From IMG/VR virus record IMGVR_UViG_3300023180_000040, positions 1-64,000 of that record: a stretch of DNA of 64,000 nucleotides. One strand, written 5' to 3'. The notes beneath the pieces are model-generated. The model was not told where the DNA came from and did not search any database. It saw only the letters and a program-made list of their open reading frames with translations. The position numbers were made by a program, and so were the translations under genes. Position 1 is the first letter of the stretch, and each line of letters starts with the position of its first letter. The stretch is from a virus. Shown in pieces: positions 4,415-29,782 of the stretch.

Positions 4415-5011
4415 ATGAGTTACACAACACCATCTACTGCCGTTGGTAACGGAACTTTAACCGTTACAATGTGGAATACAGAAGTAAGAGACAATTTAAA
4501 CCATTTAAATAGTTACGCTAACCCAGTAGGAGCCGTTTTACCTTATGCGGGAACTTCTGCCCCTAGTGGATACTTATTGTGCGATGGAGCATCTATCGGT
4601 ACAGCAGATTACCCAGATTTATTCGCAGTTGTTCAATACAATTATGGTGGTAGTGGTACTGCCTTTAATGTTCCAGATCTTTCTACTCGTATGCCTATCG
4701 GTACGGGAAATGGAAGGTCAGAAGGAGATGCTGGAGGAACAGAAAATGTTACTCTTGATGTAACACAAATACCTTCTCACTCTCACGTTGCAACAGATTC
4801 TGGTCACACTCATACATACCCAACAAGTGCTGGTGGTGATAGTTTAGGTGGTGGTGATACTGGAGCATTTGATGTTGCCACTTATGGAGCAAACGGGTCG
4901 CTAACAACAAATACTGGATACGCAAATGTGACAATTAATAATACTGGTGGGGGATCTTCTCACACAAATATGCCACCCTATCTAGTAATGAATTATATTA
5001 TTAAAACATGA
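4415..5011 (+). CDS. Phage tail collar domain protein
   Basis: 198 residues. Residues about 38-105 carry the tail-collar signature: GAVLPYAGTSAPSGYLLCDG, then FNVPDLSTRMPIGTGNG. A Gly/Ser/His-rich stretch follows, ending SHTNMPPYLVMNYIIKT. This is the short fibre/microcystin-dependent-protein collar family, found near the ends of phage fibres. The protein at 28904-29782 has the same collar and nearly the same C-terminus, so the two are paralogues. Shine-Dalgarno AAGGA lies upstream of ATG 4415. It is the last gene of the left tail block. Confidence 0.88.
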   Translation: MSYTTPSTAVGNGTLTVTMWNTEVRDNLNHLNSYANPVGAVLPYAGTSAPSGYLLCDGASIGTADYPDLFAVVQYNYGGSGTAFNVPDLSTRMPIGTGNGRSEGDAGGTENVTLDVTQIPSHSHVATDSGHTHTYPTSAGGDSLGGGDTGAFDVATYGANGSLTTNTGYANVTINNTGGGSSHTNMPPYLVMNYIIKT

Positions 5012-5494: not shown

Positions 5495-5672
5495 ACAAAC
5501 TTTTAATGGCGGTCTTTTTTGATGAAAAATTATGCGTGTTGCCAATTTTTACCCATCCGAGGGGTGAGCGTTGGTAAAAATCAAATGCAAATTCTTTAAA
5601 CATTGTGCGCTCTTCTTCATGGACTCTATATAAAAGAGCCACACTTTCATTATCTCTAATCCATACTTCCAT
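5424..5672 (-). CDS. Small hypothetical protein
   Basis: 82 residues with normal protein composition (MEVWIRDNESVALLYRVHEEER), function unknown. A good Shine-Dalgarno (AAAGGAAAGGAT) precedes ATG 5672. That ATG overlaps the stop of a tiny upstream ORF as TAATG, which suggests coupled translation. It converges on and overlaps the plus-strand gene ending at 5494. An extended -10 motif at 5694-5702 could drive it. Confidence 0.6.
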   Translation of the reverse strand: MEVWIRDNESVALLYRVHEEERTMFKEFAFDFYQRSPLGWVKIGNTHNFSSKKTAIKSLSRMGYQKDPDQKDLYPVGDLLSL

Positions 5673-5764
5673 TATTCATCCTTTCCTTTATGTATTATAG
5701 CAGCAGCACCATACAGTATGTCAAGCAAAGCGGCGCTATAAATAATAATAAACTGTCCTATCAT
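5672..5764 (-). CDS. Possible 30-residue membrane peptide
   Basis: Reads MIGQFIIIYSAALLDILYGA and then a short charged tail (HKGKDE), a single hydrophobic helix. AAGAAAGGAG lies 14 bases upstream of the ATG, and the stop overlaps the next start (TAATG). A longer frame exists upstream, but it runs through the terminator hairpin and tRNA, so only this short form is plausible. Small size keeps confidence low. Confidence 0.35.
   Translation of the reverse strand: MIGQFIIIYSAALLDILYGAAAIIHKGKDE
5694..5702 (-). promoter_or_regulatory. Extended -10 promoter TGCTATAAT
   Basis: Minus-strand TGnTATAAT element, 22 bases upstream of ATG 5672 and inside the tiny membrane-peptide ORF. It would start transcription near 5687 and leave a short leader carrying the AAAGGAAAGG ribosome-binding site. 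Confidence 0.4.
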
Positions 5765-5828
5765 CTTCTTATATACTACTCCTTTCTTATATAGTAAGTT
5801 TGCAATTAGTGTTACTAACCCAAAAATA

Positions 5829-5851
5829 AAGGCCCGCTTTATGCGGGCCTT
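5829..5851 (-). terminator. Rho-independent terminator after fMet tRNA/tmRNA
   Basis: Perfect 9-bp GC-rich hairpin (AAGGCCCGC / GCGGGCCTT, loop of 5). On the minus strand it is followed by TATTTTT. It lies 28 bases beyond the 3' end of the tRNA and would end the tmRNA-tRNA transcript. Confidence 0.85.
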
Positions 5852-5879
5852 CTTAATTTTATTTTTGTTATGTAACATA

Positions 5880-5952
5880 TAGCGGGGGAAGGATTCGAAC
5901 CTTCGATCTTCGACGCATGAAGCCGACGAGATAACCACTTCTCCACCCCGCG
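5880..5952 (-). tRNA. tRNA-fMet (CAT), initiator type
   Basis: Folds as a full cloverleaf with anticodon CAT. Initiator features: position 1 is C facing U72 (unpaired end as in bacterial initiators), the D stem has A11-T24, and the 5' half (CGCGGGGTGGAG) matches bacterial initiator tRNA closely. The anticodon stem has only part of the usual three G-C pairs (G29-C41, G30-U40, C31-G39). CCA is not encoded. It lies 5 bases downstream of the tmRNA and is probably co-transcribed with it. Confidence 0.85.
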
Positions 5953-5957
5953 TTGTA

Positions 5958-6239
5958 TGGAGATGACCGGCTCTGCCCCGGTGTCCCATATAGTTCCCTC
6001 AAATCAACTTATACAGCATATTATACTACATTGTACTTCGGTTTACTACTGTGCTTAGTAGTTGTAGACTAAGCGGCTACTCCAGCAAATTCCTCTACCC
6101 ATGAGGCGGGGAAAGTGTCTGGAACGATGACTTCATTTAAGTTGCCATTTATGTTTATTTGCTTATCCAAGCAGGAGTTATGAGGTAACTAACCGCTGAT
6201 TGATTTGGCTTCTCTATAGGTCGAAACTAATTCATCCCC
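5958..6239 (-). ncRNA. ssrA: Transfer-messenger RNA (tmRNA)
   Basis: One-piece tmRNA of 282 bases. The ends pair as an acceptor stem (GGGGATG with CATCTCC) that keeps the G3-U70 pair, the alanine identity element, with discriminator A. The 5' part contains the conserved TTTCGAC. The 3' part aligns with known tmRNAs as GAC, T stem ACCGG/CCGGT, acceptor strand. The T loop, GGCAGAG, departs from the usual TTCNANN. An internal frame (6069-6146) from a GGC resume codon encodes 25 residues ending EEFAGVAA and then TAG. The hydrophobic VAA end suits a degradation tag. The resume codon is inferred. tmRNA rescues stalled ribosomes and tags the stalled peptides for proteolysis. Confidence 0.85.
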
Positions 6240-6252
6240 AAGTAACCACTAT

Positions 6253-7347
6253 TTAATTGTTCGTTTTTTCTTCTTTTTCTAGTTTAGCATATTTCATTGC
6301 TTGTCCAATAACTTGATGCATATCATAGTATTTATAGTTGCCAAGCCTACCTCCAAAAATAACTTTTGGTGCTTTTACCTTAGCCATTTTTCTATATTCA
6401 TTATATAGATCGTTGTTTTTCTTATCGTTTATTGGGTAATAAGGTTCGCCAAACTTTGTAGGAAATTCTCTAGTAATGATTGTTTTGTCTGTTTTTAGTC
6501 CGGGGTAGAAATGCTTATGCTCAACAATTCTCGTATGAGGAATAAACTTTTCTGTATAATTTATTTGGGCACAACCTTGATAATATTCAGACTCATAAAC
6601 TTCATTTACAAGATCTAATGAACGATATTCAAGTTTACCCAGTTCATAATCAAAAAACTCATCAATTGGTCCTGTGTAAACGACTTTATGAGCCAATTCT
6701 TTAAGATGATGAGCATATGGCATATTTGTTAGATATGGAATATCTTTAAGAATATTAGATATCATATCTGTATATCCGTTTACTGGGATACCCTGATAAG
6801 TATCATTAAAATAGTTATCATCAAAAGTCATACGAATAGGAAGACGTTTAATAATATCTGCTGGCAACTCTGACGGAGGTTTGCCCCACTGCTTCTCTGT
6901 ATAGCCTTTAATAAGCGTTTTATAAACTTCTGGACCTACTTGTGATATTGCCCAAGTTTCTAAATTAGATTGTTTGTTTGGTAGTTCGTTCCATTGTTCA
7001 ATCCAACCTTGCAATTGTTTAATACTAGAAGCATTAGCAATTTCATTAAATGTTTTTAAATTGAAAGGTAAAGTATAAAATTTTCTTTTATAGAATGCCT
7101 TAACCCTATGAGTATAATTATTAAACTCTGCATATTTATTTACAAAATCCCAAATATCTTGATTTGATGTATGAAAAATATGAGGACCATATTTATGAAC
7201 ATGAATGCCCTCATGCTTTTCTGTATATACGTTGCCGCCAATATGCTCTCGCTTATCAATTACTAAACAACTTTTTCCAGAATCGGTCATGATGCGAGCA
7301 AACGTTGCTCCAAATAATCCTGCTCCAACCACTAGATAGTCATACAT
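6253..7347 (-). CDS. glf: UDP-galactopyranose mutase
   Basis: 364 residues, normal length for the family. The N-terminal FAD-binding motif is GAGLFGATFAR (8-18), followed by the family signature HIGGNVYTEKHEG and YGPHIFHTSN. Later family motifs include YNYTEKF-like INYTEKFIPHTRIVEHKHF and FGGRLGNYKYYDMHQVIGQA at the C-terminus. The enzyme interconverts UDP-galactopyranose and UDP-galactofuranose. In the host this feeds galactan or other glycan synthesis, so the phage copy may alter surface glycans or serve DNA/virion glycosylation; no glycosyltransferase is visible nearby. The start follows the stop of the deaminase-like gene directly. Confidence 0.92.
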   Translation of the reverse strand: MYDYLVVGAGLFGATFARIMTDSGKSCLVIDKREHIGGNVYTEKHEGIHVHKYGPHIFHTSNQDIWDFVNKYAEFNNYTHRVKAFYKRKFYTLPFNLKTFNEIANASSIKQLQGWIEQWNELPNKQSNLETWAISQVGPEVYKTLIKGYTEKQWGKPPSELPADIIKRLPIRMTFDDNYFNDTYQGIPVNGYTDMISNILKDIPYLTNMPYAHHLKELAHKVVYTGPIDEFFDYELGKLEYRSLDLVNEVYESEYYQGCAQINYTEKFIPHTRIVEHKHFYPGLKTDKTIITREFPTKFGEPYYPINDKKNNDLYNEYRKMAKVKAPKVIFGGRLGNYKYYDMHQVIGQAMKYAKLEKEEKTNN

Positions 7348-13047: not shown

Positions 13048-14619
13048 ATGCAATATAGATTTATTTGGAATATAGATCAAGATCAAATTCACTTTGTAAA
13101 TAATTTTGATTTTGAAGAACCCCTAGAAGATAATTATATCACAGGAGACTATCTTCCTGCTGATAAATCTATTTCTTTATATAAAGAAGATGTTAAAGTT
13201 CCAATAAATTTAGATTATTTTGTTCGTCTATGGAAAGCGTCTGAACCAGATAAAGAGATTGTTAGAGAAAGAGTAGAGGTAGTGAGTTTAAATAAAGTTT
13301 CAAACGTTAGACTTGCCTCAAGTCAAGAAGAAAAGTTGGTCGCCCAGTTTTTAATTGCTGAACATGGTCAAGATAGTATGTTAAATCTAGATAAACTTTT
13401 TGAAGCAAATCCTACTCCCGATGATGTAAGAAGATACTTTATTCCTTTTATAAAGAAGTTTAATCAAAACACTTTTAAGCAATTCCCTGACAACCTTCCT
13501 AGAAACGCAAAGCAATGGAGAGCCTTATCAGAAGAAGAAGTTTTTGCTTATGTAGAATATTTTGCAAATAATATATCAAGAGGCGATCAACAACTTGCTA
13601 ATTCTTTAACTCAAGCAATGATGGATAAATGGGAAATGGATGGAGTTCCATTTGATCCTGCGGAATATATCATAGATGAGGGAATGATAAACTGGAATGA
13701 AGTTCGATCTTTACTATTAAGAGAATTTGGCAATTCATTTAATTTGTTTTCTAAATGGGAAAAAGTTTCTGACTATGGAGGCTGGACAAACTGGGAAACG
13801 TTTTTGACAAATAACATTATGGAAAACGAATTTAATATATATAAATATTTTTTAGATTTAGCAAAAAAAGCCATTAGTAAATACCCAAGTGAAACTTTTT
13901 TTGAATTAAAAGAAGTTTGGCGTGAAAAAATTGAAGAAATGGTTATTGATGTACATAACAGAACCTGTGACGAAACAGAACGAATTGATGATATTCTGAA
14001 AGTAGACTTTGATGAAATTTTAGGTCATTGGTTTGAAAAAGTAAACGAAGAATTAGGTTACGATGAAGTTTATTCTTTACAAAGAAAAAATCAAATTCTA
14101 GATAAGTGGGAACCCGAAAGTTGGTGGAAAGGGTCTAAATGGAATAAAATCTCAGATCATAATGGCTGGACAAACTGGGAAACTTGGAACGTTAATCTTA
14201 TGATGGAAAACGATTATGATGACTATTTGTATTTTACGGATTTAGCAAAGAAAAATATTTCTGTTGATGACTTTGCTATGGCAGCAATCGAAAGAGTAAT
14301 TGGTCCATATAATGAACAACTTAGAAACGATTTTGCTGAATATACCGATGAAGAAGAAATTTTAATGCAATTAGAAAATGATGATCAAAAATGGCGAAGC
14401 GATGCTGAAAGAAGATATCCAGACGATCCAGAGGCTCAAGAAGATTATATTAGAAAAATGCGAGAGATTGTTTATGGCCTAATGGGAATTCCTGAACCGA
14501 CAGATATAGCAAATCATTGGCTAGATGAGTCCAAAGTGAACTGGCAAGAAATTTACGAACATTGGATTAACAATACAAAAGAATCAAGTTGGAAGGTATT
14601 GAAGTGGAAGAGAATTTAA
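13048..14619 (+). CDS. Unknown protein with duplicated GWTNWET motif
   Basis: 523 residues. Two copies of a tryptophan-rich unit lie about 120 residues apart: SDYGGWTNWETFLTNNIMEN (about 243-262) and SDHNGWTNWETWNVNLMMEN (about 370-389). Each is followed by a Y-F-x-DLAKK helix, so the middle of the protein is an internal duplication. Similar NW-x-TW modules occur in small phage proteins of unknown role. It also has two INW/VNW-x-E elements and ends SSWKVLKWKRI, a tail shared with two nearby proteins. It overlaps the next gene. Its place beside the lysis and structural genes may mean a virion role, which is inference. Confidence 0.7.
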   Translation: MQYRFIWNIDQDQIHFVNNFDFEEPLEDNYITGDYLPADKSISLYKEDVKVPINLDYFVRLWKASEPDKEIVRERVEVVSLNKVSNVRLASSQEEKLVAQFLIAEHGQDSMLNLDKLFEANPTPDDVRRYFIPFIKKFNQNTFKQFPDNLPRNAKQWRALSEEEVFAYVEYFANNISRGDQQLANSLTQAMMDKWEMDGVPFDPAEYIIDEGMINWNEVRSLLLREFGNSFNLFSKWEKVSDYGGWTNWETFLTNNIMENEFNIYKYFLDLAKKAISKYPSETFFELKEVWREKIEEMVIDVHNRTCDETERIDDILKVDFDEILGHWFEKVNEELGYDEVYSLQRKNQILDKWEPESWWKGSKWNKISDHNGWTNWETWNVNLMMENDYDDYLYFTDLAKKNISVDDFAMAAIERVIGPYNEQLRNDFAEYTDEEEILMQLENDDQKWRSDAERRYPDDPEAQEDYIRKMREIVYGLMGIPEPTDIANHWLDESKVNWQEIYEHWINNTKESSWKVLKWKRI

Positions 14620-18551: not shown

Positions 18552-20534
18552 ATGGATAATCTAAGTGAATATATACTAAGATTAGTAAGAAATAATCCTG
18601 CGGCAAAAACAGTTGTTGAACTATTATCTCCATTTGGAGAAGTTTATGTAGTTGGTGGAGCGGTTAGAGATGTTCTTCTTCAAAAGAAACCAAAAGACAT
18701 AGATTTGGTAGCAAGAGTAGACGAAGATACAATTAAGTCTGTATTAAGTAATTTCCCAAATGCAACATTAAATAAAACTGGAAAACAGTTTCCAGTATAT
18801 AGGTTTAGATATCAAAACGAAGAAGTAGAAATTGCTTTACCAAGAATAGAAACTAAGGTTGGAGAAGAAAGTAAAGATTGGGAATTTAAAAGTGATCCGT
18901 CTATTCGAATTGAAAGAGATTTAGAAAGAAGAGATTTTACTGCAAACGCAATTGCCGTAAACGCTCAAACCGGAGAGATTGTAGATCCTTTAAATGGAAT
19001 TGATGATATTGAAAAGGGATTGTTAAGAGTTATCAATGAAAACTCTTTTAGAGATGATCCTTCAAGAACGCTTAGAGCATTAACTGCAATAAGCAAGCAC
19101 GGTTTACAACCAGATGAAAAAACTAAAGAACAAATGCGTAAATATGGCCCGTACTTGGCTAAAATCGCTCCAGAGATTATGGGCATGGAATTAGATAAAA
19201 TACTCAGCGGAGAACATCCTCATCAAGCAATACAAATTGGTCAACAAACCGGAGTATTAGAACACTTCTTGCCAGAAGTTCATACAACATTTGGTTACGA
19301 TCAAAAAAACAAACATCATAATTATGATCTAGGGACTCACCTGATGGAAGTTGTCAAAAATATGGCTCGCAGATCTGATGATACAGATATGAGACTCGCG
19401 GCTTTGTTTCACGATATTGGCAAACCAGATTCTGTTTGGTACGACGAAGAGGGAAATGGTCACTATTATAAAAATGATTCTGGTCAAGGACAAGACCATG
19501 AAACTGTTGGCGCACAAATGGCTGAAGATATTTTAAGAAGATTAAGATATCCTGCAAACAGAATAGCAAGAATTAAACAATTAATTCAAAATCATATGTT
19601 CCCCATTTTTAATTCATCAAAGGGAGCAAGAAAGTTTCTTAATCAAGCCGGTTCTTACGAAATTGCTCATAATTTACTTGATCTTAAAGAGTCAGATTAT
19701 TTAGGTAAAGGCAATGATAGTGCTACAAGAGAAATGTCTGATTTAATGAGGCAATTAATTGATGCTGAATATGAAGCACAAAATGCTTTTACTCCCAAAG
19801 ATTTAGCAATTAATGGCAACGAAGTTATGCAACTTTTAGGCATTGATAGTGGCCCTCAAGTGGGAGAAATACTGAAATCTTTGATGGATATTGTTGTTGA
19901 CAATCCTGAAATGAATACAAAAGATAACTTGTCTTCATTTATTAATAACTTCTATAAAAGTTCATCAAATGTAGAGTCAGCAATTCTTGAAATATCAAAG
20001 CAAATTAGAAGAGAAGCCGCTTGGCGCGACGTTGAAATGAAAGCAAAACGTCTAAAAGATGGCGGTCAAGTAGTAATAAACACCAATGCTGAAAATGCAG
20101 TTGAAGGAGTAGTACAGGGTGATAATGGTATTTACGAATGCATAATATATAGAGAAGACCCTAGCAGTCAAAGAATTACGCATTGGAACTGTGAGTGTAA
20201 ATGGGGTCAGTATGCATACGGAAGAACAAGAAAATATAAGAAATTTGAAGGTCGGCCATGTTCTCACGTTATGGCAATGTTTTGGGAGTCAAGATCCTTA
20301 CCAGTAGGGTATTTTGGAGCAGAGTTTGATCCTAATCAAACTTACAGTTTTGAACCAGATGCTCCAAACTATCAAGTTGTTCAACAAGATGTTTCTCAAG
20401 CAGGTAATCCGTTAGAGTTAGAAAATCAAAATTCTGAGTTTCCTCCTATGCCGCAAGGACAATCTCCTGCTCCACCTAATTTTGAAGAGGGGGAAAGAAG
20501 ATCGTCAATTAAAAATAAATGGAAAAGGATTTAA
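18552..20534 (+). CDS. CCA-adding tRNA nucleotidyltransferase with HD and SWIM domains
   Basis: 660 residues. The N-terminal class II nucleotidyltransferase carries VVGGAVRDVLL (33-43), metal site DID (49-51), RRDFTANAIAVN (126-137) and RDDPSRTLRAL (167-177). A helical region and an HD domain follow (ALFHDIGKPDS, about 286-296). The C-terminal third adds a SWIM zinc finger, CEC near 548 and RPCSH near 569, which is not a usual part of this enzyme. The enzyme adds or repairs the 3' CCA of tRNAs, and all phage tRNAs here lack encoded CCA, so the match is functional. The tail ends KNKWKRI. It could also act as a poly(A) polymerase. Confidence 0.88.
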   Translation: MDNLSEYILRLVRNNPAAKTVVELLSPFGEVYVVGGAVRDVLLQKKPKDIDLVARVDEDTIKSVLSNFPNATLNKTGKQFPVYRFRYQNEEVEIALPRIETKVGEESKDWEFKSDPSIRIERDLERRDFTANAIAVNAQTGEIVDPLNGIDDIEKGLLRVINENSFRDDPSRTLRALTAISKHGLQPDEKTKEQMRKYGPYLAKIAPEIMGMELDKILSGEHPHQAIQIGQQTGVLEHFLPEVHTTFGYDQKNKHHNYDLGTHLMEVVKNMARRSDDTDMRLAALFHDIGKPDSVWYDEEGNGHYYKNDSGQGQDHETVGAQMAEDILRRLRYPANRIARIKQLIQNHMFPIFNSSKGARKFLNQAGSYEIAHNLLDLKESDYLGKGNDSATREMSDLMRQLIDAEYEAQNAFTPKDLAINGNEVMQLLGIDSGPQVGEILKSLMDIVVDNPEMNTKDNLSSFINNFYKSSSNVESAILEISKQIRREAAWRDVEMKAKRLKDGGQVVINTNAENAVEGVVQGDNGIYECIIYREDPSSQRITHWNCECKWGQYAYGRTRKYKKFEGRPCSHVMAMFWESRSLPVGYFGAEFDPNQTYSFEPDAPNYQVVQQDVSQAGNPLELENQNSEFPPMPQGQSPAPPNFEEGERRSSIKNKWKRI

Positions 20535-22495: not shown

Positions 22496-23371
22496 ATGTG
22501 GAAAAAATCTATGCCAAGGGGACTTGGGCCTTCAATTGAAGAAGGTGCAAATATAATTAGACAATTTGCGCTAACAAGAAACCATGCTAATGGCGAATTT
22601 GGTTTTTCAACTGAAGACTTATGGCAAAGTGAAAATTGGCGCAACTATTGGTATGGGTTTGAACAACCAAATTATCAACAAATTAATGCTAGAATTGCAA
22701 GAGCAAAACAAAACAACTACATAGCGTCAGTCGGTGGCCTTTTTTGGTGGAAAGAAAACAGTAAGTATACGATATTTGAATTTGCAAAAGTTATGAATAC
22801 TTATTCAATTGATTTACCAAAATATGTTCATGACTTGTTTTATAACAGAATTTCACAAGAAATATTTAAAACTGATAAAAAACTTAATGATTCTCTTTAT
22901 TATCTTCAACTTCTACAAGAACGTTTACAAAATCAAAATAGAAACTTAACTTTCGACGAATATTTAAATATTAATAATCAATATAATAAATTTTATATGG
23001 AAAATATTGAAGCAAAAAAAACTTTTATTGATAATAAATACTATAAAGTGCTAAAAGAAATTGAACAGGCACAAGAAAAAGAAGTAGAAAATTTTAAAAA
23101 AAGTTCAACTCCACAAGAATGGCTCAAAACAAACTTTTCTAAAAATACTAGTCTTTATCTTCAACAAATAGTTGAAATGTTCTTAAAAGTTCCAGAAGAA
23201 ACCTTAGAAGAATACAATAAAACTTTTTCTGCACAAAATCAAACACCACAAAATATACAATCATTAGAAGAAAGTCCTGTTCTTGATATAGTAAGTCCTA
23301 AAAAACAACATGAACAATATTGGATGAATTATTTTAACACTACATCAAAAAGCAAATGGAGAATTATTTAA
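22496..23371 (+). CDS. Unknown protein with W-R-I-I tail
   Basis: 291 residues, mostly helical, with many Asn/Gln/Lys. The N-terminus (MWKKSMPRGLGPSIEEGA) may be a short targeting segment. It ends TSKSKWRII, resembling the ends of the 13048 and 18552 products. Its start follows the previous stop by one base, and its end abuts ATG 23372. No domain recognised. Confidence 0.6.
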   Translation: MWKKSMPRGLGPSIEEGANIIRQFALTRNHANGEFGFSTEDLWQSENWRNYWYGFEQPNYQQINARIARAKQNNYIASVGGLFWWKENSKYTIFEFAKVMNTYSIDLPKYVHDLFYNRISQEIFKTDKKLNDSLYYLQLLQERLQNQNRNLTFDEYLNINNQYNKFYMENIEAKKTFIDNKYYKVLKEIEQAQEKEVENFKKSSTPQEWLKTNFSKNTSLYLQQIVEMFLKVPEETLEEYNKTFSAQNQTPQNIQSLEESPVLDIVSPKKQHEQYWMNYFNTTSKSKWRII

Positions 23372-28903: not shown

Positions 28904-29782
28904 ATGGCATATAGTAGAACTACATGGGAAGATTCACCAAGCACAAATACTCCCATTTCATCGGCCAATCTTAATAATATAGAAGAAGGCATTCTTGATG
29001 TTGAAAGCGAATTAAATTATGTAGCAGGGACAGTTACAACAGTATCTAATTCAGTTACTGCTATTGCTGGAAGCGTAACTAACGCTCAAGGGTCTGTAAC
29101 TGCAACTCAAGGGTCTGTAACTGCAACTCAAGGGTCTGTAATTACTCATAACGCTGCTACAACATCCGTTCATGGGATTACAGACACAAGCAACTTAGTC
29201 TACACTGATAATGCCACGCTTGGCTCAGTTTCTTCAATTGCAGGTTCAGTTTCAAACTTATCTACTGATGAAAGATTTAATCCAACAGGAGCAGTTTTGT
29301 CTTTTGCGGGTACAGTTGCCCCATCTGGTTATTTATTATGTGATGGAACAAGTTATGGAACGGCAGATTATCCCGGGCTTTTTGGTGTAATTGGATATAC
29401 TTATAGTGGTACTGCTAGTGGTACTGCCTTTAATGTCCCAGATCTTTCAACTAGGATGCCAATTGGCACAGGAAATGGAAGAACAGAAGGTGATTCAGGT
29501 GGAACAGAAAATGTTACCTTATCAACTAGTCAACTTCCCTCCCACAGCCACCCAATTACCGATCCCGGTCATGGTCATACAATGACTATAAATTATACAA
29601 CTAGTAACAGTCCCGGTGGCGCGACTTCTCTCCAAGGTGCTGGTCAATCACCAAATAGTAGTTTTCCCGGTCAAGTAGTTGATAGTAATACAACTGGTAT
29701 ATCTGTTGGAAATACTGGTGGGAACTCACCGCATACAAATATGCAGCCCTATCTTGTAATGAATTACATTATTAAAACTTAA
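28904..29782 (+). CDS. Tail collar fibre protein with short tandem repeats
   Basis: 292 residues. The N-terminal ~130 residues form a coiled or solenoid stalk with G-S-V-T repeats (GSVTNAQGSVTATQGSVTAT). Then comes a phage tail-collar domain (VLSFAGTVAPSGYLLCDG, FNVPDLSTRMPIGTGNG) and a His-rich loop (LPSHSHPITDPGHGHTM), ending NMQPYLVMNYIIKT. It shares collar and C-terminus with the 4415-5011 protein and is its longer paralogue. AAGGAG lies 8 bases before the ATG. Likely a short tail fibre. Confidence 0.88.
   Translation: MAYSRTTWEDSPSTNTPISSANLNNIEEGILDVESELNYVAGTVTTVSNSVTAIAGSVTNAQGSVTATQGSVTATQGSVITHNAATTSVHGITDTSNLVYTDNATLGSVSSIAGSVSNLSTDERFNPTGAVLSFAGTVAPSGYLLCDGTSYGTADYPGLFGVIGYTYSGTASGTAFNVPDLSTRMPIGTGNGRTEGDSGGTENVTLSTSQLPSHSHPITDPGHGHTMTINYTTSNSPGGATSLQGAGQSPNSSFPGQVVDSNTTGISVGNTGGNSPHTNMQPYLVMNYIIKT
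29085..29147 (+). repeat. Three 21-bp tandem repeats in collar gene
   Basis: CTCAAGGGTCTGTAACTGCAA occurs twice without change (29085-29105, 29106-29126) and once with a changed 3' third. Perfect copies suggest recent slippage and possible length variation of the stalk. Confidence 0.85.

Follow-up and report, generated by a model that had tools for sequence, protein, structure and literature searches.

The window analysed here, a 64,000-nucleotide stretch of DNA belonging to a virus record of 77,080 bases, carries on its minus strand (6239–5958) a one-piece tmRNA gene of a tailed phage, whose 5′ half comes ahead of its 3′ half (i.e., unpermuted) and whose mature body comprises 282 bases without CCA. 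Read along this strand, the gene has the form GGGGATG-AATTAGTTTCGAC ... GGGAC-ACCGG-GGCAGAG-CCGGT-CATCTCC-A. Here, the 5′ strand of the acceptor stem (GGGGATG, 6233–6239) joins CATCTCC (5965–5959) in seven pairs, including G3-U70, which close the tRNA-like domain and are kept in all relatives, with A5958 as the discriminator; the original prediction had read the acceptor stem, this pair and the coordinates of the gene correctly. CCA is not encoded, with TAC coming next, and the tRNA genes of the same phage likewise lack it.

Searches with a tmRNA model and ARAGORN, named beforehand as a check on the prediction, gave a divided answer. In a permissive Rfam scan, RF00023 aligned end to end with 5955–6239 of the minus strand (model positions 1 to 374) at 39.1 bits and an E-value of 5e-14. 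This score is below the RF00023 gathering score of 47, and a scan of the window at gathering scores reported the tRNAs and missed the tmRNA, as did ARAGORN. Moreover, an RF00023 search over the whole record of the phage's own genome first missed the gene and gave tRNAs and fragments, so that failing to find a tmRNA in this way counts for little. The permuted alphaproteobacterial model RF04321 scored only 12.7 bits on the gene, which does not have the circularly permuted order (3′ half before 5′ half). When annotated phages were searched with the tmRNA DNA, no homologue was found, only tRNA-Met and chance matches. The fold of the single sequence is only mildly better than that of shuffles (z −1.44), as expected for a pseudoknotted RNA. 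A 105-residue open reading frame at 5672–5989, spanning the T arm and the adjacent tRNA, was judged spurious.

Identical copies of the tmRNA gene occur in several IMG/VR contigs, and diverged ones in two related phages, L026 (88% identical) and L079 (84%), such that the lineage comparison comprises three distinct sequences only; the contig of a further relative, G002, stops short of the tRNA region and says nothing on the tmRNA. The proposed structure contains 50 pairs, distributed over the acceptor stem, helix 2 in three parts, two hairpins, the T stem and a pseudoknot at the stop codon. In the three-sequence alignment, all 50 pairs are standard in every sequence and six have both sides changed, while none of 500 shuffles was as good and slid controls were 29–43% paired with no double change. 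As we drew this structure by eye on the same three sequences, the double changes outweigh the percentage paired. Judged by this covariation, the shared fold exceeds chance and, together with the RF00023 match, confirms that a phage tmRNA lies at 5958–6239.

The outer part of helix 2 (CCTATAG, 6214–6220, with CTATATGG, 5993–5986) is invariant in the three sequences, and its inner part (AAATCAA, 6200–6206, with TTGATTT, 6007–6001) has two compensatory pairs. Over the tag stop (6046–6074), a pseudoknot is formed by GCTTAGT (6074–6068) with ACTAAGC (6059–6053), a stem having two double changes, and by CTAC (6067–6064) with GTAG (6049–6046). The long helix 2 and the pseudoknot surrounding the tag frame and its stop, which are traits of a standard tmRNA, are hence both present and covary. 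In the T arm (5966–5982), the stem ACCGG/CCGGT encloses the loop GGCAGAG (5977–5971). Its counterpart in L079 has the stem TGCGG/CCGCA, with two double compensations, and the loop GGCAGTA, in which the GGCAG core is kept.

Five bases downstream of the tmRNA lies a tRNA with a CAT anticodon (5880–5952, minus strand), a probable co-transcript, followed by a hairpin resembling an intrinsic terminator (5828–5852, minus strand) that ends the tmRNA-tRNA unit. Both the gene order and the hairpin are kept in L026 and L079. Just upstream of the tmRNA, a sigma-70 promoter consensus is absent, so the gene is likely transcribed by read-through from the genes before it. In all three phages (window 5880–5952, minus strand; L026 7388–7462; L079 9275–9348), the C1-U72 end of the CAT tRNA is unpaired. 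In initiator tRNAs, the first position is likewise unpaired and the anticodon stem has three G-C pairs; these three pairs are missing in the tRNA beside the tmRNA, which looks like an altered initiator tRNA. A SpoU-family RNA 2′-O-methyltransferase (PF00588; 8033–8560, minus strand; no PHROG match) adjoins the tRNA cluster. The best identities of this cluster were similar in Actinomycetes and Alphaproteobacteria and not decisive for the host. Among annotated phages, the nearest terminase and DNA polymerase belong to Rhodococcus phage E3 and related actinophages (31–38% identity).

Farther along, at 18552–20534 (plus strand), the phage encodes a tRNA nucleotidyltransferase of the CCA-adding type (phrog_2244, E 1e-71; PF01743, PF12627, PF01966 and PF13735), possibly the maker of the tmRNA CCA. 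This protein has an extra C-terminal part with a CxC...CxH motif resembling a SWIM zinc finger. Its tail, KWKRI, is similar to those of two otherwise differing proteins of the plus strand, at 13048–14619 (KWKRI) and 22496–23371 (KWRII), as if the tails were a shared targeting or processing signal. An almost identical stretch resembling a tail collar, SGYLLCDG...GTADYPxLF...FNVPDLSTRMPIGTGNGR, recurs in the proteins at 4415–5011 and 28904–29782 (plus strand), which are probably duplicated tail proteins.

Within the tmRNA, the tag reading frame runs from GGC at 6146 to TAG at 6069 (minus strand) and reads GNLNEVIVPDTFPASWVEEFAGVAA. We infer GGC 6146 as the resume codon because the frame upstream of it is broken in L079 by a one-base indel, and the preceding TAAAT fits the UA that is usual at −5/−4 before a tmRNA resume codon. 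The frame, predicted as 25 residues ending VAA, is open and kept in both relatives, whose tags are GNLNEVIVPDTFPASWIEEFAGVAA (L026, 25 residues, ending VAA) and GNVEEVIVPDTFPAEWVEMAGVVA (L079, 24 residues, ending VVA, after an in-frame loss of three bases, i.e., one codon). Between the window and L026, we counted five synonymous changes and one replacement (17.8 and 57.2 sites; Fisher p 0.0025), and between the window and L079 five synonymous changes and eight replacements (p 0.15, not significant on its own). The stretch EVIVPDTFPA is identical in all three sequences. These comparisons indicate that the tag is kept as protein, with a hydrophobic end. In line with the expectation of unusual tag length, tags in a curated database most often have 10 residues (PMC11915505). 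Bxz1-type phage MoMoMixon carries a tmRNA whose tag reads ATDTDATVTDAEIEAFFAEEAAALV, likewise of 25 residues, as anticipated for actinophages, and in Mesoplasma florum Lon reads a long tag (PMC9382460). The tag is therefore long, yet has precedent.

The long tag could, in addition to serving ordinary trans-translation, have a specificity of the phage's own, by which unfinished proteins would be passed to a protease or adaptor different from that of the host tag, or be degraded more slowly, and so be redirected. We regard this as a speculative addition, and the predicted steering of degradation by the phage as likewise conjectural. Its favourable points are the conservation of the whole length rather than just the end (with EVIVPDTFPA unchanged), the missing ANDN start that is usual in the tags of other phages, and the Lon-read tag of M. 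florum. On the other hand, the ends EEFAGVAA and MAGVVA are an ordinary hydrophobic degron, and RNA structure may account for part of the conservation. A role without tagging, with the RNA acting as a decoy that sequesters stalled ribosomes or the SmpB of the host, seems improbable. The tmRNA of mycobacteriophage DS6A, which consists of the tRNA-like domain only and for which such a role was suggested (PMC4131195, PMC11915505), offers a precedent, and no smpB was found in the phage contigs. However, DS6A has no tag region whatever, while the window gene has an open, conserved tag frame with a pseudoknot around its stop codon.

As had been predicted, the T loop GGCAGAG is without the TTCNA core, and the two double compensations in L079 show its stem and loop to be real. 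In the D-loop segment (AATTAGTTTCGAC, 6220–6232, minus strand), A6228 and G6227 occupy the positions of the GG found in most one-piece tmRNAs. The window gene thus has the alphaproteobacterial-type combination of T loop GGCAGAG and D-loop AG, and not T loop TTCRA with D-loop GG, the standard form of RF00023. We do not take the latter as defining for tmRNA, since natural tmRNAs with GGCRG and AG appear to abound. In fact, a T-arm pattern blind to the D-loop (GGAC, GGCAG and the 3′ acceptor strand fixed) matched numerous viral contigs and also numerous genomes, the latter mainly of Pelagibacteraceae, among the matches listed; here and below, pattern-scan counts refer to such matches and are not frequencies. 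Among those listed, a 5′ half was found for 212 of the 219 with a paired T stem, nearly all permuted, and the D-loop was AG in 212/212, at the place where the RF00023 consensus is GG. Recruitment by D-loop GG gave 39 unique complete genes, each with T loop TTC. Recruitment by D-loop TAG gave GGC-type T loops with two exceptions, L322 (TGCGATT) and L324 (TTCGACT, with a mismatched acceptor), besides four matches with no recognisable T arm. When only C56 of the loop was fixed, 39 fully paired T arms were obtained from 240 alphaproteobacterial genomes, and every one had GGCGG or GGCAG; TGCGA was not found in these genomes. In 346 Actinomycetes genomes, the GGCAG T arm had two matches, both with unpaired T stems and hence ascribed to chance.

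These scans show two matched sets of tmRNA loops, GG with TTCRA and AG with GGCRG. In alphaproteobacterial tmRNA, GGCRG is the usual form of the T loop, and many phage tmRNAs have it too. Having D-loop AG and T loop GGCAG, the window gene has loops that match each other. Published observations include GG at these T-loop positions in Reclinomonas mitochondrial tmRNA and G in Caulobacter (PMC1168896). In a partial literature search, we found no paper stating the D-/T-loop covariation, and we make no claim that it is unknown. The permuted viral tmRNA of L322 (about 6400–6540) pairs T loop TGCGATT with D-loop AG, which suggests that the 55-with-18 and 54-with-58 exchanges are separable, with this form as a possible intermediate. 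The claim that the altered T loop should affect folding or partner binding finds no support: no such defect would be expected, since GGCRG is usual in alphaproteobacteria and matched by D-loop AG in essentially every case. The loop does, however, lack the U54 and U55 modification targets. That the gene is a decaying remnant of a captured tmRNA, with the T loop as damage, might be read from the low Rfam score, the missing CCA and the non-canonical loop, but is hardly credible and already contradicted by the compensatory changes, the mostly synonymous changes against L026, the conserved and matched type of the loop, and the lack of CCA in this phage's tRNAs too.

We consider it highly probable that the gene encodes a functional one-piece phage tmRNA performing ordinary trans-translation during infection, with a compensated elbow; of this reading, the sequences directly show the gene itself, its fold, the conservation of its tag and the loop covariation. 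The tmRNA would be transcribed with upstream genes and the downstream CAT tRNA, excised by tRNA-processing enzymes, probably in processing shared with that tRNA, and given its CCA by a nucleotidyltransferase, such as the phage encodes. Presumably charged with alanine by way of G3-U70, it would, together with the SmpB and EF-Tu of the host, enter ribosomes that have stalled on broken mRNAs in infection. Alanine and the 25-residue tag, with its hydrophobic AA/VA degron at the end, would be appended, and the tagged stub would be degraded by a protease and the ribosome freed. At the elbow, G54/G58 within the T loop and G55 facing D-loop A18 would replace U54-A58 and G18-U55, and in this manner the T-loop change may be compensated. 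As no smpB gene was found in the phage, host SmpB is probably used and would have to accept this elbow; a passage of PMC3968760, citing Barends 2002, has SmpB requiring the contact between the D- and T-loops.

These results reveal a class of phage tmRNA that standard finders miss or place below threshold. They also illustrate how a T loop that looks "broken" can make up one side of a co-evolved pair, with GG/TTCRA and AG/GGCRG swapping over some 250 genes in our sample. Given the matched loop pairs, the loop contact relevant to SmpB is testable with four simple constructs, and the conserved tag of 24–25 residues is a ready reporter for phage redirection of the proteolysis of unfinished proteins.

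Compared with known systems, the window gene shares with the standard RF00023 tmRNAs, including that of MoMoMixon, the one-piece form, the acceptor stem with G3-U70, the TTTCGAC segment and the internal tag frame, and with MoMoMixon also the phage setting beside tRNAs and the 25-residue tag. In contrast, MoMoMixon has D-loop GG, T loop TTCGAGT and about 437 bases, against AG, GGCAGAG and about 285 bases in the window; the two tags are unrelated, and the Rfam score of the window is sub-threshold. With the permuted two-piece tmRNA of alphaproteobacteria (RF01849 / RF04321), the window gene shares T loop GGCRG and D-loop AG, though it is unpermuted, with its low RF04321 score. Caulobacter-type tmRNA tags end in EEFAVAA, which the window's EEFAGVAA resembles. 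The two-piece tmRNA of the marine OM43 phage Melnitz, described as closest to alphaproteobacterial tmRNA (PMC9004378) and reported with a glutamine riboswitch, is likewise phage-borne but differs in gene form from the one-piece gene of the window, in which no riboswitch family reached its Rfam cut-off.

Alike in elbow and gene form are the one-piece viral tmRNAs of L156/L177/L333, L332, L345 and L109, which are also unpermuted with D-loop AG and T loop GGCAG. However, they are longer (334–436 bases), mostly have an encoded CCA, and bear ordinary tags of 13–14 residues, e.g., ANNNNHFEQRLAA and ANDNVEIDYAIAA; L332 and L345 score above the RF00023 cut-off. Because these unpermuted viral contigs share the GGCAG/AG elbow, elbow type and gene permutation are not coupled. 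More tentatively, one-piece phage tmRNAs with a GGCRG elbow might descend from two-piece ones by reversed permutation (or keep an unpermuted ancestor), with the elbow as a module that can be transferred and that consists of two linked exchanges (54-58 and 18-55) dispensing with m5U54 and pseudouridine-55, and with a lineage-specific tag having its own protease address; we regard this as possible but speculative. What is unusual in the window is that a one-piece gene combines an elbow of the alphaproteobacterial type with a long tag lacking the usual ANDN start.
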